64,000 nucleotides of DNA from Bacteroidales bacterium. GTDB taxonomy: Bacteria; Bacteroidota; Bacteroidia; Bacteroidales; UBA10428. The stretch is from positions 52,076 to 116,075 of the forward strand of contig JAFGVA010000130.1 of NCBI GenBank assembly GCA_016938235.1, read 5' to 3'. Both the position numbers and the translations under genes were made by a program. The notes below the pieces were generated by a model that saw only the letters and a program-made list of their open reading frames with translations, had not been told where the DNA came from and ran no database searches. This document shows, piece by piece, positions 43,073 to 63,431 of the stretch (positions within the stretch are counted from its first letter, which is position 1; the number at the start of each line of letters is the position of its first letter).

Positions 43073-43130
43073 GATATAGTGTTTTTTAATATTTTCAAAA
43101 AATTGAAGTAACCCGAAATTGTGTATAAAA

Positions 43131-44133: not shown

Positions 44134-47100
44134 TTAATGTACAACTATTAGTTTTAAGTTCTGAACCTGCTCACCCTGATTAAGCTGAATGATGTAGTTA
44201 CCATTAGCAATTTGTGAAGTATTTAAACTAATTGTTTCTTCGTTATTTAGAATAGATTTACTGTATTGTTCTATAATCTTCCCGGTTATTGAAATGATTT
44301 TTATTTCAAGAGAACCGTTGCTGAACTTGCCATCAATATTAACACTGGCATCAGCAGGGTTCGGATATAGTTTGGTATTCCATGTTTTATCAGGCAAAAT
44401 TTCAGGAATTGCCGAAAGGTTTAAATCAGCTGTCCAAATTCCCCTGCCATGTGTTGCAACAACAACATTTCCATCAAATATATCCATTTTCCAGATAGAT
44501 ACTGGAGGCAATCCATTATTTGCATAATTCCAGCTTTGGCCGTTATCTGCGGATTCAAATAATCCAATTTCGGTTCCTGCCCAGATTATATTTGTGTCGT
44601 AAGGCATTACAAGAAGATCGGAAACTACAACATCGGGAAAGCCATTAGAGCTGGTACTGTCTGTTCCAAACCCAGAAATATCTTCCCATGTTTTTCCAAA
44701 ATCCATGGTACGTAAAACCTTTGGTTTGTTTCTAAATGAAAACAAAACAAATGCCTCTGCAGGATTAGTGGGGTGAGTAGCAAGTCCGCTAATGAAACCT
44801 AGTTCAACATTTTTGTAAATTTCTGTTGAATCGAATGTTTCTCCGAAATCCTTTGAAACAAACAGGTGCAAATCAGGATTCTCGAACATCCCCCCCCCGG
44901 CCCAAATTACTGCCGGATCTGCTAGAGAAACTTTAACATGATGCATGCTGGTTACAGTTTCGTTCACTGACCAGCCTTCGCCCAGATCAATTAACTGCCA
45001 TTCGTAATGTCCATAGCCAAAGTTAATATGCTTATACAAACCCTTAGAACCTACAACAAAAACAAGATTTGGATTTTTTATTGAATTTGAAAGTTTGGTA
45101 ATAAAAGGACCATCACCATTTAATCCGTCAATCGACCATTCCCAGGATTCTCCAAAGTCGTTTGAAACCTCTATGTAGTTATTATAAACACTACCCAAAA
45201 TACGATTAGGGTACAAAGGATGCCACAAAACTTCAAAACCGTCTCCCTCAATTTTTTTGGTGTATTCTGAATTTGCATCTGCAACACTATTCAGAGGCGA
45301 CTGCCAGGTACCATTATCCTGCATTCCGCCTATATATTCATGCATTCCTGGTCGCTTGGCAACACCATAAAACTGGGTGGTTAAATACCCTTTATTTATC
45401 TGCTCCCAGGTTTTACCGCCATCGCCCGAAAATCCCAAGCCCCCATCGTTCGATTCAATAATATTAAACTTCTCCTGTTGGTGATCGGTAACAAAAAATT
45501 TAATATCATGATGATCAACATGTAAATTCTCATTAAGCCTGTCGTCGGCCAAAACAGTTGTATATGCATCCTGGTATGTAATCGTTCCAAACTTAATATT
45601 CATAGTTGCTTCAGGCAGTTCTGCAGGTTTCCACTCCTTATCTTCTTCTAAAGTTGGCCAAATAAAGTATAAAAGTTTGCTCTCGTAACCGTCTTGTAAA
45701 ATTTCAGCTTCAGGTGTTGACGAATTATATGGATATGCACTTATAAATATATATTCCCTTCCGCTTATATCATCTCCATAAACACGTTCTGAAAGGTTAA
45801 ATGTTCCATCCCTGTCCTGATCCCGGAAGGAAATCATTAGCTGTTGGTCATTATCTAAATCCCAAACCTGAAAGGGCACATCAACATAATCTTCGTAATG
45901 ATAATACTGTGGAGGAACTCCGGCACCCTCTCCCTCAGGAACTGAAAATCTGTGCGCTTTTTGTTTTAATCCATTTCCGAACCTTATTTCAACACTTACA
46001 AAATCATCTACCTCTACATCAGCGTCTTCAACTAAGCCTGTTGATATTGCTCCTCTAAAAAAAGAAGCTCCAAAATTCACAAAACTCATAAAACTTCCGG
46101 TTCCTACAGTATCAACCCGAACAACTGTTGGCTGACTGGTAAATTTTGTTTTTCTAAATTCGAGCAAACCAAAATACACACCACCGATATACACTTTGTT
46201 CTTATCGAATGGATGAGCTGCTACAACATTATTAAACCAACCTTGTGTTTGATGAAAGTTGACAAATAAATCATCGGTATTGTAATTCAGACACCAGCTT
46301 TTCCCACCATCTTCGGAACGGTAAATCTGAGTTTCTGCAGTGGGCGACTCAACTCCTGCATAGAGAATTGAGGTATCGACCGGGCTAATTGTAAGCGAAA
46401 CACGCCGGCACTCTGCAATACCTTCAAAGCTTTTCCCCCAGGTATCTCCAGCGTTATTTGAGCGAATAACTCCTAAAGCGTTCACTCCGGCAAATAAAAC
46501 CTGGGGATTCTTTGGATTCTGAATTAAATCCTGCACAGCATATCCTTTGTAATAGACATTTATCCATGATTCTCCGGCATCCAGTGATTTAAAAAGACCT
46601 TTATTTGTAGCAACCACCAGCACACTATCGTCGTCGGGACTTATCCAAATTTTATTTATAAACCTGAACCTTTTATCATCTTTTGTTGATGCAAGGTGTT
46701 CCCAGGTATTCCCTTTATTTCTTGAAACAAAAATACCGTTCCCGGTGACCATTCCTTCGCCCCCATATCCTTCGCCCGTTCCGGCATAAATTACACTGGT
46801 ATTTGAAGCAGCAATTGCCAAAACAGCAGTTGATAAATTTGGTAGATTTGAAGTAAGGTTTTCCCATGAATTACCACCATCAGTTGTTTTCCAGATTCCT
46901 CCACTTACTGAACCTGCAAACCATGTATTCCCTGTATTATCATCGGGATCTATAATAACAGTTCGAGTTCTTCCACCAACATTTCCCGGGCCACGCTGAA
47001 TCCATTCCAAATCTTCAGTTGATTTGAAATTCACGGTTTTGTTTTTAAGTGCTTTATTGTATTCAGCAAAAGTATAATTGGGTTTATATCCCGATTCTTT

Positions 47101-47265
47101 CTGACCTAAGGGTGTGGTAATTGATTTAAAATAATCGTAGAAACCCTCTGGTTTATCGTAGCCAATTCTCGGATCATTTTCGATCAGAAAACCTTGTTTA
47201 ACTGCAATTACAGATAACAAAAGCAACAATCCAGCAAAAAGGTATATAATATTTCTAACTTTCAT
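44134..47265 (-). CDS. Large Asp-box (BNR) beta-propeller protein with T9SS tail, copy 1
   Basis: 1043 aa. N-terminal hydrophobic export signal, then EWIQRGPGNVGGRTR and about ten Asp-box repeats of the S.D.G..W type (WKTTDGGNSW, FKSLDAGESW, YRSEDGGKSW, FESADNGQSWN), as in VPS10/sortilin-like propellers. An inserted domain at about 375-590 splits the propeller and holds a DQDRDGTFNL segment that looks like a Ca2+ loop, plus an HVDHHD motif. The C-terminal 80 residues (LYPNPADASVNI...GNYIIQL...LKLIVVH) are a type IX secretion sorting domain. It is the last gene of the five-gene susC1 unit, 6 bp after the lipoprotein gene, so likely surface-displayed with it. No catalytic residues recognised. 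Confidence 0.85.
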   Translation of the reverse strand: MKVRNIIYLFAGLLLLLSVIAVKQGFLIENDPRIGYDKPEGFYDYFKSITTPLGQKESGYKPNYTFAEYNKALKNKTVNFKSTEDLEWIQRGPGNVGGRTRTVIIDPDDNTGNTWFAGSVSGGIWKTTDGGNSWENLTSNLPNLSTAVLAIAASNTSVIYAGTGEGYGGEGMVTGNGIFVSRNKGNTWEHLASTKDDKRFRFINKIWISPDDDSVLVVATNKGLFKSLDAGESWINVYYKGYAVQDLIQNPKNPQVLFAGVNALGVIRSNNAGDTWGKSFEGIAECRRVSLTISPVDTSILYAGVESPTAETQIYRSEDGGKSWCLNYNTDDLFVNFHQTQGWFNNVVAAHPFDKNKVYIGGVYFGLLEFRKTKFTSQPTVVRVDTVGTGSFMSFVNFGASFFRGAISTGLVEDADVEVDDFVSVEIRFGNGLKQKAHRFSVPEGEGAGVPPQYYHYEDYVDVPFQVWDLDNDQQLMISFRDQDRDGTFNLSERVYGDDISGREYIFISAYPYNSSTPEAEILQDGYESKLLYFIWPTLEEDKEWKPAELPEATMNIKFGTITYQDAYTTVLADDRLNENLHVDHHDIKFFVTDHQQEKFNIIESNDGGLGFSGDGGKTWEQINKGYLTTQFYGVAKRPGMHEYIGGMQDNGTWQSPLNSVADANSEYTKKIEGDGFEVLWHPLYPNRILGSVYNNYIEVSNDFGESWEWSIDGLNGDGPFITKLSNSIKNPNLVFVVGSKGLYKHINFGYGHYEWQLIDLGEGWSVNETVTSMHHVKVSLADPAVIWAGGGMFENPDLHLFVSKDFGETFDSTEIYKNVELGFISGLATHPTNPAEAFVLFSFRNKPKVLRTMDFGKTWEDISGFGTDSTSSNGFPDVVVSDLLVMPYDTNIIWAGTEIGLFESADNGQSWNYANNGLPPVSIWKMDIFDGNVVVATHGRGIWTADLNLSAIPEILPDKTWNTKLYPNPADASVNIDGKFSNGSLEIKIISITGKIIEQYSKSILNNEETISLNTSQIANGNYIIQLNQGEQVQNLKLIVVH

Positions 47266-47271
47266 CTACCC

Positions 47272-47841
47272 CTACTTTTTATAATCAACATCTTCAAAAC
47301 CGGTTTTCCTGTATCCAAAGACTAAAACTGTATCTACAAGTGCATCATATGCATCGTAGTAACCTGCACGGAAAAATAATATTTCATCAATATCATCAGC
47401 AGTAAAGGCTATATTTTTAAATGAGTATTCTGCCAGGCTATATATAAAATCAGTAAGAATGAAATTTTCCTGAATATAACCCTCGATACTGATCTTATGA
47501 ATGTCGTACCTACCCATATTTATAACTTCGAGTTGGTCGGTTTTATAGGCAAAAAATCCGGTATCGTTAAGAATCGGAACTTTTATTCTTGTGTCTGAAT
47601 TATACAGATTATTGATAACCAACATATTATCATCGTTTGGTGCCAATGCTGTTGACATATCGTATGGATCTGAAAGATGTCCATCAAGGTCTCCTCCCTG
47701 AAATTCAAATACCACCCAATTCCCGGCCATAGCATAAGGATACCCATCAGCATAATTTACATCAATTCCTTCCGAACAGGATTTAAGTATAAATGCCAGA
47801 ATAAGAATGTAAAAACTAATATTTTTAAAAGACTTAATCAT
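47272..47841 (-). CDS. Surface lipoprotein of the susC1 locus (possible lipid-binding-like family)
   Basis: 189 aa. The signal peptide ends in ILKSC, giving a lipidated Cys22 followed by SEGID, with acidic residues resembling Bacteroidota surface-export signals. The mature part opens with YPYAMAGNWVVFEFQGGD and is beta-rich. It resembles the lipid-binding putative hydrolase family of SusCD loci, but this is from general likeness only. It lies between the DUF5011-like lipoprotein (7 bp) and the Asp-box gene (6 bp) in one operon. Confidence 0.7.
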   Translation of the reverse strand: MIKSFKNISFYILILAFILKSCSEGIDVNYADGYPYAMAGNWVVFEFQGGDLDGHLSDPYDMSTALAPNDDNMLVINNLYNSDTRIKVPILNDTGFFAYKTDQLEVINMGRYDIHKISIEGYIQENFILTDFIYSLAEYSFKNIAFTADDIDEILFFRAGYYDAYDALVDTVLVFGYRKTGFEDVDYKK

Positions 47842-47848
47842 TGCTCAA

Positions 47849-48544
47849 TTATTCAAATATTTTGCTCCAGGAAACATTAATATTATTTCCAGTATAGGGT
47901 TCGTCAATCAACCTTACGGTCCATACTAGAGACGACAGTGTATATTCACCGCTAGATGCACTATAATTGCCAAAATCTCCTTCTCCAGGTAACAGTACCA
48001 ATTCATGATTACCTATGTCAACAAACATACCCTTCATTTCACTTCCGGGATAGCCGAAAACTTCAGAGCATTTATACAATCCCTTCTCATTAATTTTGGT
48101 TACTGTCATTTCTGCTAATGGAGACCAAAGGGTTCCTTCATACTTTCCTGATAAATCGTTTTCTGAGATTTCGGCATGAGTTACTGACACAATTCTTTTT
48201 CCTAAAGCATAAAGTCCATCACTATTTTCTGAATAATAATAAATTAGATAAACACCAACTACGGTTAAATCGACCTCTCCGAAAGTAATAACCGACAATT
48301 CTTTATCTCCATCAAAGGCCACAGCACCGGGATCGACATATTCACCACTATCCTGAACTATATATGATACAAATTCACCGCCATATAATTCAAATTTTGG
48401 TAATTGCGAAACATGCGAAACTCCTTCGGTATGATTCCATTCTTCGCAGGCAGAAAACAACAATATAATCGCGAATATAATTAAGCCTGATATAATTCTT
48501 TCAGGATAACTAAACTGACAATATGCTATAATTCCTCTTTTCAT
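47849..48544 (-). CDS. DUF5011/BT_2262-like lipoprotein
   Basis: 231 aa. Lipobox LFSAC followed by EEWNHTEG, an acidic start typical of surface lipoproteins. Residues about 50-115 form an Ig-like DUF5011 module (YVDPGAVAFDGDKELSVITF, DLTVVGVYLIYYYSENSDG). The C-terminal half (LSGKYEGTLWSPLAEMTVTK...) resembles the BT_2262-type domain. Such proteins sit after SusD in many loci and may help hold ligand at the surface. It is 2 bp from susD1, clearly co-transcribed. Confidence 0.78.
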   Translation of the reverse strand: MKRGIIAYCQFSYPERIISGLIIFAIILLFSACEEWNHTEGVSHVSQLPKFELYGGEFVSYIVQDSGEYVDPGAVAFDGDKELSVITFGEVDLTVVGVYLIYYYSENSDGLYALGKRIVSVTHAEISENDLSGKYEGTLWSPLAEMTVTKINEKGLYKCSEVFGYPGSEMKGMFVDIGNHELVLLPGEGDFGNYSASSGEYTLSSLVWTVRLIDEPYTGNNINVSWSKIFE

Positions 48545-48546
48545 TT

Positions 48547-50091
48547 TTAGTCAATGTCCCACCAAATATTTACCCAAACCTCTTTCAAATCAGGTGTATT
48601 TCTATTACTTGCATATTCCGATTCAGGATAAATCAGTCTCCTCGGAAATTTACCACTGGTTACATTATTTACGGAAACCGAAAGTTCTCCGGGCACATAA
48701 GCATTGTCATCTGCAGGCACAGGACTCTCCTGTGGATACCCAGTTCTGTTCTGTTCAAAAAATGTTTCAAGGTTCTGTGTGCCTGAAAGAGCGATCCATT
48801 TTTGTTCAATTATGCTCTTAATAAAAGTTTCCTGTTCGCTTCCTTCCGAAGGAAATGAATAGTTGCCAGACAGAGCAGACTCAGCAATAATGTCAGTAGA
48901 AACAGTTGTTCCGTATTTATGAATGGAGACCCTGTTCAGTACTCTGTTAAAACTTGCTTTAACAGCTTTGTTATATAAATCTCTAGCTTCGGAAAAATCG
49001 TCAGTTTGATACCTGATAATTGCTTCAGCCTGCAAAAAGCAGGATTCTTCATAACTTATCAGAAAAACAGGATCGTCTGCATATAAATAGGGCTTCGAAT
49101 AACTGTTGCTGTTTATTCCGGCATCTTCGTCAGGAGCATAATAATTCCCCTGAACTAGTGCTTTATGACTACCGCCTACTGCCGGTTTATCAAAAAGATT
49201 ATCAAGTCTCTCTAAGTCGCCATTTTCGAGCAAATAACTATAAACAGTATTGCTCATTATAAGATTTGGATTGCCACCGAAGGTGCTCACATCTGTGTCG
49301 TAGACCGGATTTCTTCGGCCAGACTCATCGGTAAAAACCTTTAGCTGTGCATGTGTACTTAAAAAATCTGCATTTGCGGCATACATTGCCCTGATACCAT
49401 TCTCAGAAACCTCGGGTCTAACATAAATTTGCCTCAGAAATATTTTTAGCTTTAAGGTATTTGCAAATTCTATCCAACGTTCAATATCCCCGTTAAATAA
49501 CAGGTCCTTATTGCCTGCATCTTTAAGATCCTCTGAATCGAATTCATGTGACAATGCAAAATCCAGGCGATTGATCAAACTATCATAAACTGATATGCCA
49601 GACTCGTATTCAGGCTCAGTAATACCCTGTTCTCCTTTAAGAGCCTGTGAAAACGGTATATCGCCGTAAAGATCAACTAATATCTGGAAGGCATATGCCT
49701 GCATGCATGTTGCAATAAGGTAAAAATTCCATTCTTTATCATCCAGAGCTCCAAGGCGAACTTCTTCTAAGTTTTTCAGAGCGCCTGAATATAATTCGCC
49801 AAATTGGTTGTTATCAAAAGTACTAGAATTAATATCGTATGAATCCAAACCGCTATATTGCGAAGCTCCCGGCGATTGTGTCCAGTGTTGTGACCATAAT
49901 GCTCCCAGCACCTGGTAACGACCTCCAGCCACATAAGCTACGGAACTGATACCTGAAGCTAAAAGTTCTTCATATTCAAGTTCGGAAGGAGCATTCGGGT
50001 TTTGATTGATATCGAGCCAATCGTTGCAGGAGGTAGCAACAAATGATATTGCCAGGTATAAGAGAAATAGTATTTTAGTTCTTGTTCTCAA
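48547..50091 (-). CDS. SusD/RagB-family outer-membrane lipoprotein (locus 1)
   Basis: 514 aa. Lipobox FVATSC, then NDWLDINQNPNAPSELEYEELL, the opening of SusD-like_2-type proteins. TPR-like helical regions (YAFQILVDLYGDIPFSQALKGE; DPVFLISYEESCFLQAEAII) are typical. It forms the lid over the partner SusC barrel and selects the ligand at the cell surface. It is 40 bp downstream of susC1. SusD-like_2 members are found both in glycan and in non-glycan loci, so the substrate is open. Confidence 0.93.
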   Translation of the reverse strand: MRTRTKILFLLYLAISFVATSCNDWLDINQNPNAPSELEYEELLASGISSVAYVAGGRYQVLGALWSQHWTQSPGASQYSGLDSYDINSSTFDNNQFGELYSGALKNLEEVRLGALDDKEWNFYLIATCMQAYAFQILVDLYGDIPFSQALKGEQGITEPEYESGISVYDSLINRLDFALSHEFDSEDLKDAGNKDLLFNGDIERWIEFANTLKLKIFLRQIYVRPEVSENGIRAMYAANADFLSTHAQLKVFTDESGRRNPVYDTDVSTFGGNPNLIMSNTVYSYLLENGDLERLDNLFDKPAVGGSHKALVQGNYYAPDEDAGINSNSYSKPYLYADDPVFLISYEESCFLQAEAIIRYQTDDFSEARDLYNKAVKASFNRVLNRVSIHKYGTTVSTDIIAESALSGNYSFPSEGSEQETFIKSIIEQKWIALSGTQNLETFFEQNRTGYPQESPVPADDNAYVPGELSVSVNNVTSGKFPRRLIYPESEYASNRNTPDLKEVWVNIWWDID

Positions 50092-50131
50092 TTTTGTTTT
50101 TATAATGCTTGAATGAATGAATTAATTGTTA

Positions 50132-53100
50132 CTAAAAATCTACTTTAACATTAAAACTTAAACTTCTAACCGAAGGCTGAGCTCCGTATTCACCAAAATC
50201 GGCAAGTAAATCATTACCAAATGTTGAAAGTTCGGGATCGATATAATACTGATCTTTGGGTGTCCATAAAAACAGGTTTTTACCTGAAATTCCAATATAT
50301 ACTTTTGAAACAGAAATTGATTCAAGGTACTTTTCCGGTAAATTATATCCCAAGCTGACTTCTCTAAGTTTAACAAAAGATTTATCAATGAGGGATGCAC
50401 CATCTAACTCAACACCTCCATTTCCCCAGTATTCAACTAATTTTATCCGATCGATTGGAATCGTATTCTCAGAATAAACAGGATTTCCATTTTCATCTCT
50501 GCCTGTTTCGTACACCGCATCTGGAACTACAAATGGTTCCCGGTCGTTATAAAGTGTCTCGGGCACTGTACCCGCCCACAATGTAATATCTTTTGTGCGC
50601 GAGTACATGATACCTCCAATTCTATAATCAATACTTGCGTTAACTGAAAAGCCGCCCAGGATGAATGTATTGGTTACTCCGCCATAAAATTTATACTGTG
50701 AATTGCCATATATTTTTAAATCTGAATCAGCTATTGGCAGCCCCTGATTATCTACAAGCATCTTCCCGTCTTCGGTATACATTGGAGCTCTTGCCTCAAA
50801 GACTCCAACGGGCATGCCCGGAATTGCCAACCATGATATTTGCTGGCCTGCATCAACCCGCAGGGAGTTAAGTTCAGCCTTCTCCATTTGAGAATTTAAT
50901 GCTACAAGTTCATTAAAGTTTCTTGTAAAATTCGTCGTTATCCTCCATTCAAAGCTGTTTCTCTTTAATGGTGTAATACCCAGTAAAATTTCTGCACCGT
51001 AATTTATCATTTCGCCCAGGTTCTGCATTTGTGTACTATAACCTGAAGTAGTTGCCATTGGAGATGCCCAAATTAAATCTTTTGTCGATTTGTAATAACA
51101 GGCGCCATCAACGAATAATCTGTTCCGAAAAAGCCTTAAATCAAGGCCAACTTCGAATTCTGTTGTCATTTCAGGCCTCAGATCCGGATTCCCGATGTAA
51201 TTTCCAACTTCATATGAATTCACTGCAGTTGATGTTGGAAATGAAAAGTATCCGTAACCATCGGAATGACCAGCCTGTTGGTAAATAGGATTTACATAAT
51301 ACGGAGGTGCATCATTTCCGACCATTGCCCAACTGGCTCTTAACTTTCCAAAGGAGATGAAATTCATTTTATCCTGTAATATTTCGGAGAATACAAAACT
51401 TGCATTTATACCTGGAAATAGATATGAATTATTTTTTACCGGTAGTGTTGAACTCCATTCATTTCGAATTGTACCGGCCAGGTACAGAATACTCTTATAG
51501 GATAAATCCATCCCTCCATAAATACCCAAATTCCTAACCATAGCAGAAGCTTCACTTGATGAAGGACTTTCGAGGCTGTTTGATAAAGTTGGAAATCCTT
51601 CAAGAGACAAGTAGCTCACAGATGTTGCAAATCCTGTAGATTTTCGTTCATTAACCGACTGGCCGGCCATGATATTTATACCAAAATCCTGAAATTGTTT
51701 TTCCCATGTCAGAATAAAATCGCTGTTTAGTTGCTGCAGTTCAGAAAAACTTCTGCTGCGCATACCGGGATCAAAAACCGATGACTGCTCGTTATTCCCT
51801 GATGGACGAATTGCTTCTCTCCACTCCTCTCTGTTTTCCGACGAAACATCTGCACCAAGTCGCCAAATTGCATTTATTTGAAAGGGAAGAATAGCATTTA
51901 CTTCCAGATTGCCATATATGCGGTTCTCTGTATTTTTATTTCCATCATTATACAAAATATACCAGGGATTAACCGTATACAATGAGTAATGATTATCAAT
52001 AGTATTCCATATTAAATTGATGTCTTCCTGTTCAAGAAGGCTTATATCTCTTGGAGTTTGCATAACCTGGTTATAAACCGAAGCATCACCCTGTCCTGTT
52101 GGAACATAACTATTATTTTTATGCAGGTAGTTTAAAGATCCCGAAAGTTGAATGCCTTTTGAAATCTTTTGGGAGCCCCTTACAGAGAAGTTGTGACGTT
52201 TATAACTATCTGATTTGGTTGGAAATATGCCATCCCAGCATACGTTTGAATAGGAAATATAATAAGTTGTCTGATCGTTACCGCCGGAAACAGATAAGGC
52301 ATGATTTGTGCTGAATCCCAGGTCAAAAAACTCTTCAACATTATTGTCAAGGGCCCGATAAGCCTTTACACGAATGGAGTCATCAACCATATTACCCCAG
52401 GGGCGGTATTGATTATCAAAAGCCGGTCCCCAGCTCATATTCTCATACAAAACATGGTTACCAAAAATCCCCTGTCCGTATTCATTCTGGTATTTCACTA
52501 ACCGTAAAGGTTTTTCAAATCCCATTCCACCTGTATAAGATATTCTGGCTTTTGTCTGACTAGCACCTTTTTTTGTATTGATAATTATAACGCCATTTGC
52601 TGCCCGTGAACCATACAGAGCTGTTCCTGATGCACCTTTCAAAAAGGAAACCGATTCGATATCGTCCATATTGATATCGTTAATTTTGTTTCCAAAGTCA
52701 GTTCCTCCATTTATTGATACACTTCCCGACTGAGAATTATTTGCAGGAACCCCATCTATTACAAAAAGTGGTTGATTGCTCCCACTTAAAGATGAAACTC
52801 CGCGAACCATTATTCGGGTTGATGCCCCGGGAGCACCAGAAGATGAGGTTATATTTACACCAGCCATTTTACCCTGAAGTGCAGTGAGCATGTTTTTATC
52901 CCCGGCTTCTGTCAGATCTTCGTTATTTACTGCGGTAACAGAATATCCCAAAGCTTTTGTTTCTTTCGATATTCCTAATGCAGTAACAACAACTTCGTTA
53001 AAAGTATAGACTTCAGCTTGTAGAATAATATTTATTTGCGATTGGCTATTTACCGGAACTATTTGCGACTGCATCCCTACCGATCGAAATTCAAGTGTGG

Positions 53101-53311: not shown

Positions 53312-53348
53312 TGTTTACCTGATACTACTACAACAATAAATAACAGCA

Positions 53349-53356
53349 CAAAGATA
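53349..53356 (-). promoter_or_regulatory. Candidate -7 box of the susC1 unit
   Basis: TATCTTTG on the minus strand, full match to TAnnTTTG, 38 bp before the start codon and downstream of a terminator, consistent with an independent promoter. Confidence 0.45.
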
Positions 53357-53414
53357 AAAGTATTGCGCAATTGGGGGTAATTTTTGTTCAAAAAGGAAAC
53401 TTATACAGGCTTTG

Positions 53415-53450
53415 AAAAAAAACTGAGACCTACAAAACAGCAGGCCTCAG
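53415..53450 (-). terminator. Terminator of Asp-box copy 2
   Basis: Arms CTGAG (53423-53427) / CTCAG (53446-53450), extended by CCT/AGG, followed on the minus strand by a T8 run. It separates copy 2 from susC1. Confidence 0.85.
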
Positions 53451-53467
53451 TATATGTTTTATTAAAT

Positions 53468-56400
53468 TTATTGTATTATTATTCTCGATGATATTGTTTT
53501 CTGTTTATCCTGAACAGAAATAAAATAGTTCCCCGGAATCAAATCTGATAAATCTATTTCTACTTTACCGTTATTGCTCATACTAAATGATTTTACTACC
53601 TGACCAAACGAATTGTAAACTTTAATAGTCAGGTGAGAATCCGTGAACAAATCAGACAGTTCAATATTAACATATCCTTTCGATGGATTCGGATAAATTA
53701 ACAAACTGCTATAATCAATATCCTGCTGTATTTCTTTTTGCAGCGATGGAACAGGTGGATCAACCTCGGGTCCGTATTGATAGGTCCAAATACCTTTTCC
53801 ATAAGTCGCCACCACTATCTGGTTGTCCTGCATAAACATCTGCCATACAGGAATTGTTGGCAGACTGCTTTCTAAAAGATTCCAGGTTGCACCATTATCT
53901 AACGACTCTACAATGCCAAGCTCAGTGCCAGCCCAAATTCTTTGAGGATTATCCGGAAATACCAATAAAGACAAGCAACCTACATCAGGAAAGCCATTGA
54001 TACTCGTGTCAGAATCAACAAATCCGGTAATATCTTCCCATGACTGCCCCAAATCTTCTGTTCTAAGTATTTTGGAACGGCCATATAAACTATACAACAA
54101 ATAGGCTGTATTCGGCTCTGTTGGATGCGTTGCAATATTTGAGAAATAGGCATTCATGGCAGGTTCAGGGAAATTAACTGCTGTAAAATTTCTGGCTAAA
54201 TCGGTAGAAACAAATAAATCCCAATTATACTCCTCGGTTAAAGCAGCACCTGCCCATAAAATAGAATCGTTAGCAATAGAATATTTGATATTGTGATAAC
54301 TTGTAACAGCAGCATTGTTAGGATTCCACCCTGAAAACATACGCCTCAGTCTCCATCCGGATTCGCCAAAGGTAGTTGTGTAATAAAAGCCCTCTGTTCC
54401 TACGGCAAATACCCTGTCGGGGTTTGAAGGTATCATGGTAAGTTTTGTTATAAAAGGGCCATCTCCGTTTATGTCTTCAAAAACACCTGCCCATGAAGCC
54501 CCATGATTTTTCGACAGATATATGTAATTCTCATACGAACTTGCAAGAATTTTGTTGGTGTCTTTTAAATTCCAAACTGTCTCAAATCCGTCACCACCTA
54601 AACGAAAAACGAAATCTTCGTCAAGCGATGCTTCTTTAAATGAAGGTGATTGCCAGGTACCATTATCCTGTGTTCCTCCAATATATTCATTCCTGTATGG
54701 TTTCTTGGCAACACCATAAAACTGGGTAGTCACATATCCATTTACAATCTGGGTAAAGTTATTGCCATTATCTTTCGAAATTCCTAATCCACCATCATTG
54801 CCATTCACAATCCAGAATGTTTTATTTTCAGAATTAATCGGCACAATAGTTAAGGCATGATGATCGGGATGAAACCCGGGAACAGATGTTTTGTTATATC
54901 CACCGTTCTGGTTGTAAATATTCTTACCTGAAATATTATTATATGCATCAGAAACATTTATGATACTTCCTTTCCGGTATTCAGGATAACCATATTTAAT
55001 AGAAATATATGATTCCGGTAAATTTTCCGGTTCCCATGTCCCATCTGCAGCTAAATCTGGCCACAAGAAATAAATAAGTTTATAGGAGCGACCTCCCTGA
55101 ACAGCAATATCTGTATCCGGACTATCGGCATTGTATTCCACAGCATTGATAAAAATATACTCCCTTCCTAATTGTCCATAGTCATCACCAATACGCTCAT
55201 ACAAGTTAAATTGGCCATCAGCTTCCTGATCCCTGAAGGAACACATTAGTTGTCGGTTGTTTGTAACATCCCATACCTCAAACGGAACATTAACATAATC
55301 TTTATAGGTATAATCTGCAGCAAGAACACCTGATGTAGCACTATCAGGCACAGTAAACCTATGCGCTTTTTGAGATTTTCCTGAACCAAAGCGTATTTCA
55401 ACATCCACAAAATCGGTAGAATCCAAATCTGTTGCTTCTTCCTGATCACCCGTACTCACACCCTGTATAATACTACTAAAATTAACGAATGTTAGAAAAC
55501 TCTGTGTATTGCTTGTATCAAAGCCTGTTATTGTTCCATCCCCTGTCATTGTTTCAGTATTTACACCAATCTTCCATAAATTAACACCCCCAACAAATAC
55601 TGTATCTGATGAATACGGGTGAACCGAAATGGTATTGTCGTAGCCAGCCTGACCGCCCAGATAATCAATAGCTTCTTCTTCTTTGTTTTTAATGTGATTC
55701 CAGGTTAATCCCCTGTCTGAAGATAAATACAAATCGGAACCTCTCTCGTTATTTTCAACACTGACATAAACCCATGAAGGATTGGTGGGGCTTATAGCCA
55801 GTTCAAAACGGCCATTTGTGCCAATTATACCATTTCTGGAGTATTCCCATGTCTCACCAGCATCGGTTGAGCGTACAACCCCCCTGTAATTAACTCCTGC
55901 ATATAAATAATTAAAATCAGAAGTATCGGCTTTCAGGTCTTCAACACTATAAACAGAAGAAAACACCTCTTTCCATATTTCACCATCTGTGGTTTTATAT
56001 ATACCCGATGTTGTAGCAGCTAAAACAATATTTGAAGAATCGGGATGAATAGCCAGTCTGTTTACATACCTGAAATCTTCATTCCCGGCAGTAAAAGCGA
56101 TTTGTTCCCAGGTATTTCCTTTGTCAACAGACTTGAAAACACCACCACCCGTAGTCAGCATACTTCCGGGAAAGCTTTCTCCTGTTCCTGCGTATAAAAT
56201 ATTTGGTTCTGATGGAGATTGTATGATTGTTGATATGGCAAGATAGGGTATGCCATTAGAAATAAAATCCCAGGAAATTCCGCCGTTTACGGTTTTCCAG
56301 ATTCCGCCGGTTGCTGAACCGGCAAACCATGTATTGTGGGTGGGATCTGTAATATCAACCACTACGGATCTGGTTCTGCCTCCGACATTGCCCGGTCCAC

Positions 56401-56719
56401 GCTGAACCCATTCAATTGTATCTGTATCTTTAAACCCTTTATTTCTACTTTTCAGTTTTTTTAGTTCATGCATTAAATAGTTTGCAGGGTATCCAGATGT
56501 ACTTTTTCCAAATTCGGTGCGTATTCCTTTAAAATACTCTTCAAGCTTACCAATTTTTAGTTCCTTATTTTTAGGTATATGGTTTTCGTTATTGTATTGT
56601 TTTTTGGCATATTCTTGTGCCCACTGATTATTTAACTGTTCTTTTTTTTGATTGCCAATTATTAAGAGACTAATAAGCAGCCCCAGTGAAATAATAAAGA
56701 GTAATTGTTTTTTTTTCAT
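53468..56719 (-). CDS. Large Asp-box (BNR) beta-propeller protein with T9SS tail, copy 2
   Basis: 1083 aa, a paralogue of the 44134-47265 product along its whole length: EWVQRGPGNVGGRTRS, NTWFAGSATGGIWKT, about ten Asp-box repeats (FKSVDKGNTWEQI, RSTDAGETWEYS, VESLDNGATWNLL), and the same inserted domain (FVDVEIRFGSGKSQKAHRF, FRDQEADGQFNLYERIGDD, HPDHHALTI). The C-terminus (LLIYPNPSKGYVNIELSDL...SRIIIQ) is a T9SS sorting domain. The N-terminus is a short hydrophobic signal (LLFIISLGLLISLLIIG). It stands alone between two terminators, with SusC2/D2 genes upstream and SusC1/D1 downstream. Possible function: surface binding or processing for the adjacent importers; no catalytic motif identified. 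Confidence 0.85.
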   Translation of the reverse strand: MKKKQLLFIISLGLLISLLIIGNQKKEQLNNQWAQEYAKKQYNNENHIPKNKELKIGKLEEYFKGIRTEFGKSTSGYPANYLMHELKKLKSRNKGFKDTDTIEWVQRGPGNVGGRTRSVVVDITDPTHNTWFAGSATGGIWKTVNGGISWDFISNGIPYLAISTIIQSPSEPNILYAGTGESFPGSMLTTGGGVFKSVDKGNTWEQIAFTAGNEDFRYVNRLAIHPDSSNIVLAATTSGIYKTTDGEIWKEVFSSVYSVEDLKADTSDFNYLYAGVNYRGVVRSTDAGETWEYSRNGIIGTNGRFELAISPTNPSWVYVSVENNERGSDLYLSSDRGLTWNHIKNKEEEAIDYLGGQAGYDNTISVHPYSSDTVFVGGVNLWKIGVNTETMTGDGTITGFDTSNTQSFLTFVNFSSIIQGVSTGDQEEATDLDSTDFVDVEIRFGSGKSQKAHRFTVPDSATSGVLAADYTYKDYVNVPFEVWDVTNNRQLMCSFRDQEADGQFNLYERIGDDYGQLGREYIFINAVEYNADSPDTDIAVQGGRSYKLIYFLWPDLAADGTWEPENLPESYISIKYGYPEYRKGSIINVSDAYNNISGKNIYNQNGGYNKTSVPGFHPDHHALTIVPINSENKTFWIVNGNDGGLGISKDNGNNFTQIVNGYVTTQFYGVAKKPYRNEYIGGTQDNGTWQSPSFKEASLDEDFVFRLGGDGFETVWNLKDTNKILASSYENYIYLSKNHGASWAGVFEDINGDGPFITKLTMIPSNPDRVFAVGTEGFYYTTTFGESGWRLRRMFSGWNPNNAAVTSYHNIKYSIANDSILWAGAALTEEYNWDLFVSTDLARNFTAVNFPEPAMNAYFSNIATHPTEPNTAYLLYSLYGRSKILRTEDLGQSWEDITGFVDSDTSINGFPDVGCLSLLVFPDNPQRIWAGTELGIVESLDNGATWNLLESSLPTIPVWQMFMQDNQIVVATYGKGIWTYQYGPEVDPPVPSLQKEIQQDIDYSSLLIYPNPSKGYVNIELSDLFTDSHLTIKVYNSFGQVVKSFSMSNNGKVEIDLSDLIPGNYFISVQDKQKTISSRIIIQ

Positions 56720-57046
56720 GGTTATCTGGTTCTTATTCTGATTCGTTGGATTTATTTCTAATGAATTAATTAATGAAAAACAGTAATCTTTTTTAAGTTC
56801 TTTGAATTTATTGTTGACTTATTTGAAGTTGGAATGCCGTGAAGTTTTCTATGGTTTATGGTATTATTATCAATCCATCTGATAAAAACATAAATGGATT
56901 ACCAGCCTTCAAAAGAACATATTCTGAAACTGTTTAAAATTAATAAAATAAAAAATACCATACCCCTTATCTCCAAAATAAGTTCTGTCTTCAATATATA
57001 TTTTAAACTTCAAAAAAAAGAATTTAAATTTCTTGACACATAAAAA
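56720..57046. other. Non-coding stretch upstream of Asp-box copy 2
   Basis: About 330 bp, AT-rich, between the locus 2 terminator and Asp-box copy 2. It should hold that gene's promoter, but no clear TTG/TAnnTTTG pair is seen and no hairpin or small ORF stands out. Confidence 0.4.
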
Positions 57047-57072
57047 AACCGGCAATTTTAAAATTGCCGGTT
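57040..57072 (-). terminator. Strong terminator of the susC2 unit
   Basis: A perfect 26-bp palindrome with arms AACCGGCAATTTT / AAAATTGCCGGTT (57047-57072), followed on the minus strand by a T7 run. Confidence 0.9.
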
Positions 57073-57095
57073 AAGTTTTCTATTGTGAACACAAT

Positions 57096-57944
57096 TTATT
57101 CCAGCGCATGGGTGACAGTAAAGGTACCACCCCTATTAACGACCTCCAGAAAACGATATACGGGCCATTCATAATCATAAACATAGTCGTAAGTATATGT
57201 ACCAGTGCTATTCAGGTCAAAATATCCTGAGAAAAATCCAACAGACTGATCCGGATATCCAATACTTACTACATAATTAAAACCTGAACCTTCGACATGA
57301 TAAGGATCTAAGCCTACCAGATATGTTCCGTCAGGATCATCAGGCCAAATAGAAGTCAGAATTTCAGGATTATCGCTTGATGCAGCATAACCCCAACCCC
57401 AAAGAGTATCGTTGTAAACATAGCCAGCAACAATATCTATATCATTGTCTTCACCATCCCATTCAAACGCGATAGTTAACACACTGGGATCGTTGTAGTT
57501 GTTTACTGTAAGATCCAACACCGGATTTGTTGTACTTGGGTTTACCAGGTATTTTTCGGCAAGACGCTCAAGACCTATTTCAATTTGCATGGTCTCAGCT
57601 ACCTCAGGATAATCATCAGCAGCAAAAACAATCATAAGTTCGGTTTCTGTAGTATAAGGAGCAATTGCTGCTTCATTATATATAATATCATGATCATCAC
57701 CAGTTCCATCAAGAATTATTGGTGCAAATCTAAGTTGTCTGTCGAGCATCTTATCTATACTTATAGAATAAATAATAGTGTCACCTTCGGTAACAGATGT
57801 TCCACTAAAATCGGTAGTGAATGTCACCACAGGATAACCGTCCGGACTAATAGGGTCAGCAACTTCCTGTGGCTTTTCACAGCTGGAAAGTGCAAACACT
57901 ACAAGTGCTATACTTAATAATACGGGAATTTTATATTGTTTCAT
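57096..57944 (-). CDS. Lipoprotein of the susC2 locus, Calx-beta-like
   Basis: 282 aa. Lipobox FALSSC, then EKPQEVADP, an acidic-containing opening. Residues about 45-150 resemble a Calx-beta-type module (SVTEGDTIIYSISIDKMLDR; FAADDYPEVAETMQIEIGL). The C-terminal part begins TIAFEWDGEDNDIDIVAGYV and is acidic and aromatic-rich, which would suit metal or ligand binding. Family only partly recognised. It is the last gene of a four-gene operon, 35 bp after the previous lipoprotein gene. Confidence 0.72.
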   Translation of the reverse strand: MKQYKIPVLLSIALVVFALSSCEKPQEVADPISPDGYPVVTFTTDFSGTSVTEGDTIIYSISIDKMLDRQLRFAPIILDGTGDDHDIIYNEAAIAPYTTETELMIVFAADDYPEVAETMQIEIGLERLAEKYLVNPSTTNPVLDLTVNNYNDPSVLTIAFEWDGEDNDIDIVAGYVYNDTLWGWGYAASSDNPEILTSIWPDDPDGTYLVGLDPYHVEGSGFNYVVSIGYPDQSVGFFSGYFDLNSTGTYTYDYVYDYEWPVYRFLEVVNRGGTFTVTHALE

Positions 57945-57979
57945 TATCGTAAAATTTTATTTATTAAAACGATGTTTGA

Positions 57980-58813
57980 TTATTGAGGTGTATAAGTACT
58001 TTGGTAATATCTGCAAGAACCACTTGCACATATTGAATACTCCATGTACAACACACCTGTATCCGGATCAACAGTTCCGACATCAGTACCTTCTACCCAG
58101 TTTGAATAAAGGTCTACAAGGTTTTGACCGCCGATTGACAAATCACCACAAATATCGGTAAAGGTAAAACCAGGAGTACCACCTAAAGCTGCAATAGACC
58201 AGTGTCCTACTCGTTCGGTACGGTAAGTACCAACACCTATTTTTGTAATAGTTTCTGTCCATCCCAGTGTAGACACAGTACCATCAACAGCAGTATAGAT
58301 AGTTTCCACATCATAGGTTCCTGCTAATTCAGAAGGACAAGCAAAATTTAAGGTAATATTAACCGGTTTACCAGACGCAATAACATTATCGTTACCAGAT
58401 GCTGCAGTAACAGTTAATGCAAGAACAGGAGAACTTGCCAAAGGAGTTTCTATCCCCTCGGTTAACATAGTGAAGGAAAATATGGCTAAATGATTATTAT
58501 TAGCTGCCAGAGTAACTGATGTTTCATCGAATCTATAGTGAGTGCCTTCAACCGCTGTTGAAGATGCACCAGCACCTAAAGTAACAACTATATCATCGGT
58601 AATATCACCGGTAGATGGTCCGACAAGTTTCAGTTTTACCTCGATAGTATATTCAGAACCATCGGCAACCTGTGTAACAGTCATTGAAGTGTTTTCAAAG
58701 GCTGCAAGGTTATCCCCGTCTGCAATCTTGGATACTTCGTTATCAATTTCTTTACAAGAAAAAGAAACAATCATACCAAGAAGGAATAATATTATAACTT
58801 TTATATTTTTCAT
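57980..58813 (-). CDS. Lipoprotein of the susC2 locus
   Basis: 277 aa. Lipobox IVSFSC followed by KEIDNEVSK. The middle (EYTIEVKLKLVGPSTGDITD; GTHYRFDETSVTLAANNNH) is a Calx-beta/DUF4843-like Ig repeat. The C-terminal half (CPSELAGTYDVETIYTAVDG ... GFTFTDICGDLSIGGQNLVD) has four Cys, at least one pair likely disulfide-bonded (SICASGSCRYY). Surface-exposed by its acidic post-Cys residues. Located 14 bp after susD2. Confidence 0.72.
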   Translation of the reverse strand: MKNIKVIILFLLGMIVSFSCKEIDNEVSKIADGDNLAAFENTSMTVTQVADGSEYTIEVKLKLVGPSTGDITDDIVVTLGAGASSTAVEGTHYRFDETSVTLAANNNHLAIFSFTMLTEGIETPLASSPVLALTVTAASGNDNVIASGKPVNITLNFACPSELAGTYDVETIYTAVDGTVSTLGWTETITKIGVGTYRTERVGHWSIAALGGTPGFTFTDICGDLSIGGQNLVDLYSNWVEGTDVGTVDPDTGVLYMEYSICASGSCRYYQSTYTPQ

Positions 58814-58827
58814 AATTGTAATTGTTT

Positions 58828-60291
58828 TTAGTTAGCCCAGAAGATTTTGGATGTAAAAGCATTAGGCTGTGCAGGTACATTATTTCCATTTGTAGTTATT
58901 TCACTAGCAGGATAGAATAAACGTACCGGCCTGTCGCTTGTAGAAGCCTGAGTTGAAACTGGTAAACCTACAGGGTAGCCAGTTCTTACGTAATCGAACC
59001 ATGCTTGTTCTGCTGTAATTCCAATACCGGCAAGCCATTTCTGAGTCATAATTGCCTCTAATGGATTAGCAGAATTAGCAAAATTCACATTTTGGGTAGA
59101 TTGAGCAAGATATGCTTCAGTTTCAGCAGCATCAACACCAAGATAATTACAAGAAGCAATTATACCGGCATTAAATAAAGATTCAGGATCACCGCCGAAA
59201 CCTTTTTGTGCAAGTTCTGCCTGGTTAAAATTACTCTCAGCCAAACTAAAAATAATAGAACCCATTGTTGCAGATTTAAGTATTCCAGGGCCAATATTTG
59301 ATACATAATCAGGAGCCAATGCAGGATCATTATTATCTGCACCCTGGTCAACACCAAGATGCCCTGTTGCAGGTTCTTCAAATAATAAACTTATCCTTGG
59401 ATCATTAATGTCAGCCAGGTAATCAAGAATAAACTGTGTAGCACATGTTGCTTTGTATGAAAGTGTTTGAGTACCACCTACATCTGTACCAAGTTCATTC
59501 CAGAATGGATTTTGTTTGTTTTCTTCAACTAAATAACCGGGTTGAATTATTACATCATTGGTTATAAATCCAGAACCTTCAGCTGTAATAGCAGCCATTT
59601 CTGAAGTAACTGTAGCAGCATCAACATCTGATAATCTGGCTAAAATTCTAACTTTAATTGTATTGGCAAATTTAATCCAGTCTGTCATTTCACCACCAAA
59701 GATAAAATCGTCTTCTTCTGGTAATACACTCCCTGCATACTCATCGGCAGCTTTAATCATATCGATAGCTGCGGTAAGCTTCACTAAAAGGTCAGCATAA
59801 ACTGCCTGTGCACCATCGTATGCAGGTTGAGCATTTCCACCGCGAAGCAGAGCCTCTGAATAAGGAATATCGCCATAAAGGTCAACTAAAATCTGGAAGT
59901 GATAAGCTTTCATGATTTCGCCCATAGCTCTGTAATATCCGTATTCTTCTTCTTCAAGTTCTGCTAACACCTGGTATTGTTTTAAACCTCTTGTGTATGC
60001 ATCATCGAACATTTGATCATAAAAAGTAGTAGTTACCAGGTACTTAAATTCTTCGTCGTACCATGAATAGCCTTGAGATTCACCCCAGGAGAACATCATC
60101 ATATTTCCAAGGTGATTAAGCCCTCTGTCTTGCTGTATGTAATCTGCAGTATACCACAGACCAACAGGTAGCACTAAATCAGGTGTAACTGCCTCCGGAT
60201 TGTTTGGATCTGTATTAACATCCAAATAATCTTCACATGACACTGACAGTAGTGCTAATAATATTGTTATTATAAATATATTTCTTTTCAT
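58828..60291 (-). CDS. SusD/RagB-family outer-membrane lipoprotein (locus 2)
   Basis: 487 aa. Lipobox LLSVSC, then EDYLDVNTDPNNPEAVTPDL as in SusD-like_2 proteins. Helical repeat motifs include AYHFQILVDLYGDIPYSEALL, near-identical to locus 1. It is 11 bp after susC2 and serves as its ligand-capturing lid. Its likeness to locus 1 SusD is greatest around this DLYGDIP motif, which is family-wide. Confidence 0.93.
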   Translation of the reverse strand: MKRNIFIITILLALLSVSCEDYLDVNTDPNNPEAVTPDLVLPVGLWYTADYIQQDRGLNHLGNMMMFSWGESQGYSWYDEEFKYLVTTTFYDQMFDDAYTRGLKQYQVLAELEEEEYGYYRAMGEIMKAYHFQILVDLYGDIPYSEALLRGGNAQPAYDGAQAVYADLLVKLTAAIDMIKAADEYAGSVLPEEDDFIFGGEMTDWIKFANTIKVRILARLSDVDAATVTSEMAAITAEGSGFITNDVIIQPGYLVEENKQNPFWNELGTDVGGTQTLSYKATCATQFILDYLADINDPRISLLFEEPATGHLGVDQGADNNDPALAPDYVSNIGPGILKSATMGSIIFSLAESNFNQAELAQKGFGGDPESLFNAGIIASCNYLGVDAAETEAYLAQSTQNVNFANSANPLEAIMTQKWLAGIGITAEQAWFDYVRTGYPVGLPVSTQASTSDRPVRLFYPASEITTNGNNVPAQPNAFTSKIFWAN

Positions 60292-60302
60292 TTTGATAAG
60301 TT

Positions 60303-63300
60303 TTAAAATTCGATGTTAATATTAAAACCATAAGAACGTGTCGGAGGTGGAGCTAAATAACCACCAATACCTATACCGTTAGGATCGTCAGTACTCCTGG
60401 TATTTCTAAATTCAGGATCAGAAAAGTGCCATTGACCGTCAGGTAAAATTGTCAATACGTTTCGTGCAACAAAACCAACCTTAATTTTACTAATTGCATT
60501 GGTCTTTTGTAAGATAGATGTTGGTAAAGTATAACTTATAGCAACTTCTCTCAATTTAAAAGCTGTGGCATCTTTAACATAATTTTCTTTAATTACGTTA
60601 TAATGGTTTTGCCAGAAGTCCATTACACCACCGGTAATCTGAATATTTGTATTATCGGTATAAATTGGATTTCCTGCGGCATCTTCACCTGTTTGATAAA
60701 CAGAGTTTGGCCAAACAAAGTCTTTCCTGTCACCCTGGATGCTTTCCATTGAACGACCGGTAAATTCCATAAAATCAGAACCCTGAGAATAATAAACATG
60801 TCCGGTTCTGTAGTCAGCTGTTGCAGAAATTTCGATTCCTTTAAAACTTACCTGGGTATTCAACCCTAAGATATAATCGGGTGTGGTTTTTCCTAAAGCC
60901 TTCATTTCTCCAATAATTGGATTACCGTCAGCCGGATCAATAACAACCTTACCGGTAACTGAATCACGCTCATAGGCAACTGCTTTTATCTGTGGAAAAG
61001 ATTCTCCAACAATTGCATAAGTACCATAACCTGCAGTGTATTCATCAAGAATAATTTCTTCGAGGCCATCTTTAATTTCATCAACAACCTGATCGTATTT
61101 TGTATAGTTAAGGTTGATATCCCATTTAATATCGCCAATTTGAAGAACGCGTGTACCTAATGAAAGTTCTATTCCGTTACCGCTTAATGCACCAATATTG
61201 GTTAAAATGCTGGTAGCATCAGAAGCAGTCGAAGGAGTAGTGGCTGTAATTAAATTAGTTGTTTTGGTCATGAAGTATGACGCATCAAAAGTTATTCTTC
61301 CCTGATAAAACGCCAAGTTCGCACCTATCTCTGTTGAAGAAAGTTTCTCTTTTTGAATTTTTTCATCAACAGCTGTTCCATCTAAAAAGAATCCGTTAAC
61401 CGAACCAAATGGGAAAGCACCCGATTGATAGTAACGCTCACTTATCTGAAATGGAGCTAAATCGCTATAAACAGTAGAATTATTAACTGTTAATTTTGCG
61501 AAAGAAAGAACCGGATTGTTGTTCAATGCAGAAATTGCTTCGCTTAAAACAACTGATAATCCAGCACCAGGGTAGAAATACGAATTGTTGTCAGGATTCA
61601 AAGTGGAAGTATAATCCTGGCGACCAGTTATATTCAAATAAGCCCACTTTTTGTAATTAAGAGTTACATCGCCGAAAAATCCAACTGTTCTGTATGTGCT
61701 TTCATTAACTGTACCTTCTAATTGACCGGTACCGTTCGATATATCATAAAAATCAGGTATACTTAAATTGTTAGCTCTGATAAGGCTATTACGACTTTCT
61801 GTAGATTTTACAGATGATCCAACAATAGCTTTTAATCCTATATCTTGAGTTAGATTAAATGTTCCTGTTAATAAGGCATCGCCTGTCATTGCCACTGTTT
61901 GAAATTCTGAATCTTCAACAAAAGAAGATACAGCACCAGCTGCGGGTTGCAAATCTTCGTTATAAGTCTGGGCAGCTCTCCAGTTTTTACCGGTTCCGGC
62001 AGTTGAGTTAACACCTAATTTTGAACTAAATGTTAAATTATCAAGAATGTTCCAGGCTGCACTAACATTTGCCAGTATCCTGTTGCTTTTATCCATATTT
62101 CGGTTAGTTCCGATTGCCCAATAGGGGTTTTGATAATATGCATTAAAGTAATTATCAGCGTAAGCATAACTTTCAGGATTATCCCAGTCTTTGTAAGATG
62201 ATAATGGAATATTTGCCGGAGTATTTAATAAAAACCAATAAAAAGCTCTGTCCTGATCACCAACTGTACTACCTACAACATCAGTTTCATCACTCATGTA
62301 GCTGGCATTAACTCCTAACTCTAATTTACCAAGAGTTTTCGAGGCATTAGCTCTGAAAGTGTATCTGCTATAAACATCATCAGGTACCAACCCTTTTACA
62401 TCCTGGTTACCAAGCGAAAGATAAAATTTACTAGTCTCGTCACCACCCTGGAAGTAAACAGTATTAGCAATTGATTGTCCTGTATTAAAGAAATCTTTTA
62501 AATTATCCTGAACAGGAGCATAAGGAACCATTTGCGTTTCTAATGGATAATCTTCGGGGAAAGTTGGTCCAATTTGTCTCAATTGGCCATCAAATCTTGG
62601 TCCCCAGTTTGTATTTTCAATATTATCGTATGCGCCATCCCATCCGGTACCATGTTCTGTTTGGAAATCAGGCATATAAGCAACTTTCTCGAAAGTTGTT
62701 GTATTGTTAATACCGACAGTGAAACGTTGGTTTTTAGTACCTTGTTTAGTAACAACGATAAGAGCACCATTTTTTGCATCGGAACCATAAAGTGCTGCAG
62801 CAGTAGCTCCTTTAAGAACGTTGATACTTTGAATATCATTCGGGTTAAGGTCGTCAAAAGCACCAGTTGTAGCAATTGCGCCGTCAATAACAATTAATGC
62901 TTCGTTATTATTAGTGATTGAACGCATACCCCTTAATAATATCTGGCTGTTTGGATTAACGCCGTTATCCTGAACGTTAATCTGCAGACCAGCTACTTTA
63001 CCAACAAGACCTTCGGCTGTGCGAGTTGCCTGACCGGCTACTAAATCGTTTGCGTCAACTTGTTGGGTCTGGTAAGCAACTGCTTTTTTCTCACGGGTAA
63101 TACCGAAAGCTGTCACAACAATTTCTTCCAGCCCGGTAGCCTCCATTTCCATTTTAATGTCCAGCATTGTTTGACCGGCTAATGCAATTTCCTGTGATTT
63201 CATGCCAATAAAGCTGAAAACAATTGTTGCATCTGCAGGCACTGCCAGAGAATAAGTACCATCAGCACTAGTAGTAGTTCCAATAGTAGTTCCCTTAACA

Positions 63301-63431
63301 ACTACCGACACACCAGGGAGTACCATACCATCATCGGCATTAGTAACCTTCCCTGTAAGTTGTATATCCTGAGCCATTAAGCTAAAACCAAATAGCATCA
63401 AGCATACAATTACGCTTGTAATTCTTTTCAT
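60303..63431 (-). CDS. SusC/RagA-family TonB-dependent outer-membrane transporter (locus 2)
   Basis: 1042 aa with a signal peptide (ITSVIVCLMLFGFSLMAQ). A carboxypeptidase-regulatory-like domain (LTGKVTNADDGMVLPGVSVV) precedes the plug (EEIVVTAFGITREKKAVAYQ; GMRSITNNNEALIVIDGAI) and the barrel, which ends in SYGFNINIEF. It heads the four-gene unit. A TAGATTTG box lies about 74 bp upstream of the start codon, at the beginning of a long AT-rich non-coding region. Confidence 0.95.
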   Translation of the reverse strand: MKRITSVIVCLMLFGFSLMAQDIQLTGKVTNADDGMVLPGVSVVVKGTTIGTTTSADGTYSLAVPADATIVFSFIGMKSQEIALAGQTMLDIKMEMEATGLEEIVVTAFGITREKKAVAYQTQQVDANDLVAGQATRTAEGLVGKVAGLQINVQDNGVNPNSQILLRGMRSITNNNEALIVIDGAIATTGAFDDLNPNDIQSINVLKGATAAALYGSDAKNGALIVVTKQGTKNQRFTVGINNTTTFEKVAYMPDFQTEHGTGWDGAYDNIENTNWGPRFDGQLRQIGPTFPEDYPLETQMVPYAPVQDNLKDFFNTGQSIANTVYFQGGDETSKFYLSLGNQDVKGLVPDDVYSRYTFRANASKTLGKLELGVNASYMSDETDVVGSTVGDQDRAFYWFLLNTPANIPLSSYKDWDNPESYAYADNYFNAYYQNPYWAIGTNRNMDKSNRILANVSAAWNILDNLTFSSKLGVNSTAGTGKNWRAAQTYNEDLQPAAGAVSSFVEDSEFQTVAMTGDALLTGTFNLTQDIGLKAIVGSSVKSTESRNSLIRANNLSIPDFYDISNGTGQLEGTVNESTYRTVGFFGDVTLNYKKWAYLNITGRQDYTSTLNPDNNSYFYPGAGLSVVLSEAISALNNNPVLSFAKLTVNNSTVYSDLAPFQISERYYQSGAFPFGSVNGFFLDGTAVDEKIQKEKLSSTEIGANLAFYQGRITFDASYFMTKTTNLITATTPSTASDATSILTNIGALSGNGIELSLGTRVLQIGDIKWDINLNYTKYDQVVDEIKDGLEEIILDEYTAGYGTYAIVGESFPQIKAVAYERDSVTGKVVIDPADGNPIIGEMKALGKTTPDYILGLNTQVSFKGIEISATADYRTGHVYYSQGSDFMEFTGRSMESIQGDRKDFVWPNSVYQTGEDAAGNPIYTDNTNIQITGGVMDFWQNHYNVIKENYVKDATAFKLREVAISYTLPTSILQKTNAISKIKVGFVARNVLTILPDGQWHFSDPEFRNTRSTDDPNGIGIGGYLAPPPTRSYGFNINIEF

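Follow-up and report, generated by a model that had tools for sequence, protein, structure and literature searches.

The closest described relative of the system treated here is the BT2261-BT2264 complex of Bacteroides thetaiotaomicron (PDB 5FQ6/5FQ7/5FQ8), in whose structure an oligopeptide has been described (PMC7782687) and which has been called a complex of unknown function supporting peptide import by SusCD systems (PMC11992087). The peptide importer RagAB of Porphyromonas gingivalis is flanked by the gene of an Asp-box protein, PG0188 (PMC11817032), and Sus-type polysaccharide utilization loci likewise contain a SusC/SusD pair with surface lipoproteins. Here, we analyzed a locus at positions 44134-63431 of a 64,000-nucleotide stretch of a Bacteroidales bacterium (assembly GCA_016938235.1, contig JAFGVA010000130.1, positions 52,076 to 116,075; the whole stretch is called the window below), which carries ten open reading frames (ORFs), all on the minus strand, coding in the order of transcription for SusC2, SusD2, lip2a, lip2b, AspB, SusC1, SusD1, lip1a, lip1b and AspA. 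As the original prediction had it, they make up two sets, each composed of a SusC, a SusD, two lipoproteins and an Asp-box protein of 1043-1083 residues with the tail of the type IX secretion system (T9SS). We consider it most likely, with somewhat better than even confidence, that a peptide importer of the BT2264 type lies here in a slot where SusCD cassettes are exchanged, with a propeller protein exported by the T9SS as its accessory.

Judged by its protein sequences, set 1 is the equivalent of BT2264-2263-2262-2261, gene for gene, so the original description of an undescribed uptake system does not hold for it. When SusC1 (50132-53311, 1059 aa, TIGR04056 659 bits) was compared with all PDB sequences, BT_2264 was matched at 794 bits and the next structure at 199, and RagA gave a much weaker match than BT_2264 (137 bits). 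For SusD1 (48547-50091, 514 aa, TTG start, SusD-like_2 PF12771 E 2.7e-53), the best solved SusD was the lid protein BT_2263, with 146 bits versus 83 for the next. The lipoprotein lip1a (47849-48544, 231 aa, PF16403) is of the BT_2262 type; its profile matched BT_2262 with an E value of 1.3e-11 in the N-terminal Ig-like half only, and its C-terminal part has no match there. The second lipoprotein, lip1b (47272-47841, 189 aa), showed no direct match to BT_2261 and was assigned to this type (Lipid_bd, PF12888) via intermediates: its profile aligned with the PF12888 protein of a SusC1-like locus (hhalign probability 98.8%) and, at 94.6%, with the same-position protein of another SusC1-like locus, which itself matched BT_2261 with 1.5e-26. 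An AlphaFold model of lip1b was too poor for use (predicted local distance difference test, pLDDT, 40). The order of the four genes also parallels the numbering of the B. thetaiotaomicron locus. Set 1 differs from that locus by the addition of a T9SS-tailed double-propeller gene at the operon end, followed by cysD and cysN. A BT2264-type unit with BT_2262- and BT_2261-type lipoproteins is also found at L186 (8117-17220), where the genes of a tetratricopeptide repeat histidine kinase and a response regulator come next and the SusD gene is split.

The fifth gene of set 1, AspA (44134-47265, 1043 aa), is inherited together with the SusC1 unit. All five genes are packed, as originally noted, with gaps of 40, 2, 7 and 6 bp, and of 14 AspA loci, 12 have the order SusC1-SusD1-lip1a-(lip1b)-AspA, 11 in the family and one in genome G139 of another family (in G016, counted among the 12, lip1b was not called). 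The distance matrices of SusC1 and AspA are correlated with r 0.94 (0.93 without G139, that is, within the family), the correlation between AspA and CysD is lower (0.78, or 0.74 without G139), and the trees of AspA and SusC1 have the same topology. A type of SusCD complex known from peptide-bound structures is hereby linked to a constant partner with a predicted T9SS export route, and this offers a way to test what such importers take up.

Set 2 is a different cassette and is more loosely joined to its Asp-box gene. It consists of SusC2 (60303-63431, 1042 aa, TIGR04056 545 bits), the lid lipoprotein SusD2 (58828-60291, 487 aa, PF12771 E 5.7e-71), and two lipoproteins matching no known family, lip2a (57980-58813, 277 aa, with DUF4843 matched weakly and below the cut-off) and lip2b (57096-57944, 282 aa, no Pfam match); as window and contig end together, the view 5' of SusC2 extends over 569 bp. 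The gaps between these genes are 11, 14 and 35 bp, and then 376 bp follow before AspB (53468-56719, 1083 aa). This interval carries a strong predicted intrinsic terminator 3' of lip2b (57047-57072, minus strand, 11-pair stem and T run), which sets the Asp-box gene apart as originally reported, and a second one lies 3' of AspB, between AspB and SusC1 (53422-53451, minus strand, 12-pair stem and T7). The predicted terminators therefore delimit three blocks, SusC2-lip2b, AspB and SusC1-AspA. The nearest solved structure of SusC2 is again BT_2264, at 373 bits (next 162), SusD2 has no clear nearest solved SusD, and neither lip2a nor lip2b matched BT_2262- or BT_2261-type lipoproteins. Because SusC2 is much farther from BT_2264 and the lipoproteins are different, set 2 was not classed as BT2261-64-type. 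Orthologues of lip2a (46-52% identity) occur in G006 and G224, and those of lip2b in G006, G224, G013, G022 and G019. In G013 and G022, the four-gene SusC2 cassette precedes cysCDN and has no Asp-box gene beside it; the contig of G019 ends too early to tell whether an Asp-box gene accompanies it. The partner of AspB also varies, being SusC2 in the window, in G006 and in G224 (another family), SusCx in G008 and G009, and SusCy in G010. SusCx is unrelated to SusC2, and AspB stands there on the other side of the cassette. The same AspB gene is thus flanked by differing SusCD cassettes in sister genomes, as if these had been exchanged (L064, L066, L067 and window 53468-63431). In G006, G009 and G013, the set 2-type loci have as a neighbour a gene for a YfcC/DcuC-type permease (L066:11482-13059, L076:9463-11025 and L180:2368-3957), where the YfcC annotation denotes a basic amino acid antiporter.

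The Asp-box proteins belong to a secreted family that extends across the phylum, and two traits define it: a lipoprotein gene that recurs next to its genes and a signature of polar residues that do not vary. Both window proteins match Sortilin-Vps10 (PF15902; AspA 7.7e-19, AspB 1.6e-22) above the curated cut-off (24 of 26 family members match it at E <= 0.01), and both carry the Por_Secre_tail T9SS domain (PF18962; 2.9e-12 and 3.8e-15), which is found in 25 of 26 aligned homologues. They contain 10 and 8 Asp-box motifs, and the BNR model scored above its cut-off for one (P0002, 30.8 vs 27) and just short of it for the other (P0001, 25.5). By sequence, two propeller halves of Asp-box repeats are separated by about 200 residues and followed by the T9SS tail at the C-terminus; the alignment shows the middle region absent or replaced in 11 of 75 homologues. 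In all 75 homologues, H582, D584, H586, D607, Q649, D650, N651 and D675 (AspA numbering) are invariant, and N606 is kept in 74, giving the invariant or nearly invariant signature HxDxH...NDGG...QxY...GxQDN...GDG, of which HxDxH...DGG...QDN is common to all 75. Two much more distant double propellers retain HxDxH and QDN, one of them also NDGG. Such conservation of polar residues exceeds what belongs to Asp-box structure; it could point to catalysis or metal binding, or else have a structural reason. GH74 xyloglucanases and Vps10/sortilin propellers were among the best PDB matches of the AspA/AspB profile, and they share the Asp-box repeat propellers, but AspA and AspB differ from them in their invariant residues, in the T9SS tail and in the extra domain between the propeller halves. 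GH74 activity was considered and rejected on the basis of sequence alignment, as the position of the first catalytic Asp (xADxGGxYRW motif) is Ala/Val in AspA/AspB when these are aligned to 2cn3, a D70A entry, D70 being the catalytic Asp of GH74 Xgh74A. When the genome contigs were scanned with P0001, one Asp-box protein lacking the signature was obtained. The genome of the window also codes, next to secA, for a distant T9SS protein with a double propeller (L080:463-4002), and AspB-type genes are located near secA in two other genomes (L085 and L088).

The recurrent neighbour, which the original prediction missed, is a lipoprotein of about 135 aa. It adjoins the Asp-box gene at 25 loci, which range from the genus of the window up to other classes (L064, L067, L076, L084-L089, L093, L103, L104, L141, L144-L146, L151-L153, L170-L172, L174, L175 and L179). 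Within the Asp-box contexts, its profile gave one further match, a weak one that is likewise beside an Asp-box gene. No convincing Pfam or NCBIfam family was matched. Within the window, the 376 bp 5' of AspB hold no ORF of this kind, and the small lipoprotein has apparently been lost from set 2. The possibility that lip1b is a form of it was rejected (hhalign 3.6%).

Also missed was the position of the SusCD cassettes beside the sulfur genes. Both SusCD types occupy one slot across genera, directly upstream of cysC-cysD-cysN together with NlpC and PgpH genes, and in the window set 1 is followed by cysD (ATP sulfurylase small subunit, 43131-44036, minus strand) and cysN (large subunit, 41789-43246, minus strand, true start probably inside the ORF), both assigned by sequence and synteny, with cysD 81-86% identical to several relatives. 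SusCD cassettes directly precede cysC/cysD/cysN, with the same orientation, in the window (41789-44036), L180, L181, L189, L193, L194 and L213, and cassettes have evidently been swapped at this one chromosomal site. In the window's genus, cysC is gone from the slot; in the window's genome it sits elsewhere. The synteny with the NlpC and PgpH genes indicates that the slot is old chromosomal backbone.

Taken together, two distinct TonB-dependent SusCD importers lie side by side. Set 1, a four-component complex of barrel, lid and two lipoproteins at the surface, most likely takes up oligopeptides or glycopeptides. Within the family, AspA appears to have joined it to make a stable operon of five genes; this putative T9SS-exported double beta-propeller probably works at the cell surface, in binding, delivering or trimming the ligand. 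Set 2 is a different cassette that came to adjoin the older propeller gene AspB, at a position that holds other SusCD cassettes in sister genomes. A peptidic ligand is suggested by the relationship to BT2264, the YfcC/DcuC-type permeases of G006, G009 and G013, and genes for M14 zinc carboxypeptidases that adjoin the Asp-box gene in three phylum-level loci (L142, L148 and L149). RagAB with PG0188 offers a published likeness, a peptide-importing SusCD-type pair with an Asp-box neighbour. In contrast to polysaccharide utilization loci, neither a carbohydrate-active enzyme nor a local regulator could be recognised among the ten module proteins or in the visible region (Pfam and NCBIfam). Several observations weigh against a peptide importer with a propeller accessory. 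The natural ligand of BT2261-64 is itself not known (PMC11992087). No peptidase or permease is coded inside the module, and the linkage to cysDN points away from a peptide role. AspA occurs without an importer in G001 and G004, and conversely the BT2264-type unit of L186 has no Asp-box gene. The AlphaFold model of AspA, made from a two-sequence alignment, was too poor for use (pLDDT 42).

An alternative that deserves attention, though we consider it rather unlikely, is that the propellers have a general function of their own at the cell surface across the phylum, served together with the small lipoprotein, and that they adjoin SusCD genes only because cassettes accumulate in the slot. Homologues were found in 13 of 23 genomes of the family, 13 of 247 of the order, 7 of 395 of the class and 48 of 396 in a phylum sample; these counts are lower bounds, as the larger searches were limited to a few scored candidates from each genome. 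Among the 46 class- and phylum-level loci, none had a SusCD pair near the Asp-box gene, with one weak SusC-like ORF in one context, and nine other order-level homologues had no pair nearby, a few of the contexts at these levels being short. This absence agrees with the general-function view, and so do the small lipoprotein as the conserved neighbour in 25 loci, the SusC2 cassettes of G013 and G022, which occupy the same slot and have no Asp-box gene, and the AspA genes of G001 and G004, which stand alone in the slot. It is opposed by AspA itself, which lies 6 bp from the next gene in the packed SusC1 operon and has the same tree as SusC1, and by the family's AspB/AspA genes adjoining at least four SusCD types, more than chance proximity gives. 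The proposed connection between propellers and importers is not a chance one for the AspA subfamily. Asp-box homologues across the phylum lie mostly away from SusCD genes, an outcome that the original prediction had named as refuting it; the pairing is real but mostly confined to one bacterial family. Literature on SusD together with sortilin, VPS10 or BNR/T9SS was searched for and gave no result. A further explanation, in which the family is an unrecognised surface enzyme or metal-dependent binder whose signature residues make up one site in the second propeller, has the small lipoprotein as its partner phylum-wide and was recruited in this family to feed peptide-type SusCD importers, appears unlikely to us.

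Still less probable is a sulfated or sulfur-linked substrate for these systems, with the SusCD-Asp unit co-transcribed with cysDN. The gap between AspA and cysD is 97 bp and has no predicted terminator, and in 4 of 38 other genomes of the order, which provide cysD contexts from other families, cysD is preceded by a SusC gene of the same direction at a distance of up to about 3 kb, where about 0.5 of 38 would be expected if SusC numbers equal those of this genome (a crude estimate that indicates weak enrichment). The sulfite/nitrite reductase domain (PF01077) was not found in the whole genome of the window (G000), though cysD, cysN and cysC are present; a role of cysDN in sulfur assimilation was therefore rejected, and this suggests that 3'-phosphoadenosine 5'-phosphosulfate is used for sulfation instead, which would suit such a substrate. 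On the other hand, 34 of the 38 cysD contexts have no close upstream SusCD pair, the slot belongs to old backbone, as the NlpC and PgpH synteny indicates, and the module shows neither a sulfatase nor a sulfotransferase. A literature search for SusD with cysD gave one paper, which was unrelated. As for the origin of the two sets, the original prediction called the module duplicated, and the common gene order, the general protein classes and the Asp-box proteins, which are 42% identical over nearly the whole length, fit this description. Joint duplication of all five genes was rejected by identities and trees and is very improbable: SusC1 and SusC2 are 29% and SusD1 and SusD2 27% identical, and the lipoproteins of the two sets show no similarity. 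As SusC1 is no closer to SusC2 (403 bits) than to the SusC of contig C72 in the same genome (408 bits), the two are ordinary paralogues. In the maximum-likelihood tree, the family's AspA proteins form one clade and its AspB proteins another, each with several genomes, so the two genes parted long before this genus. Elsewhere, two Asp-box double-propeller genes stand in tandem at L166 (5105-12042).

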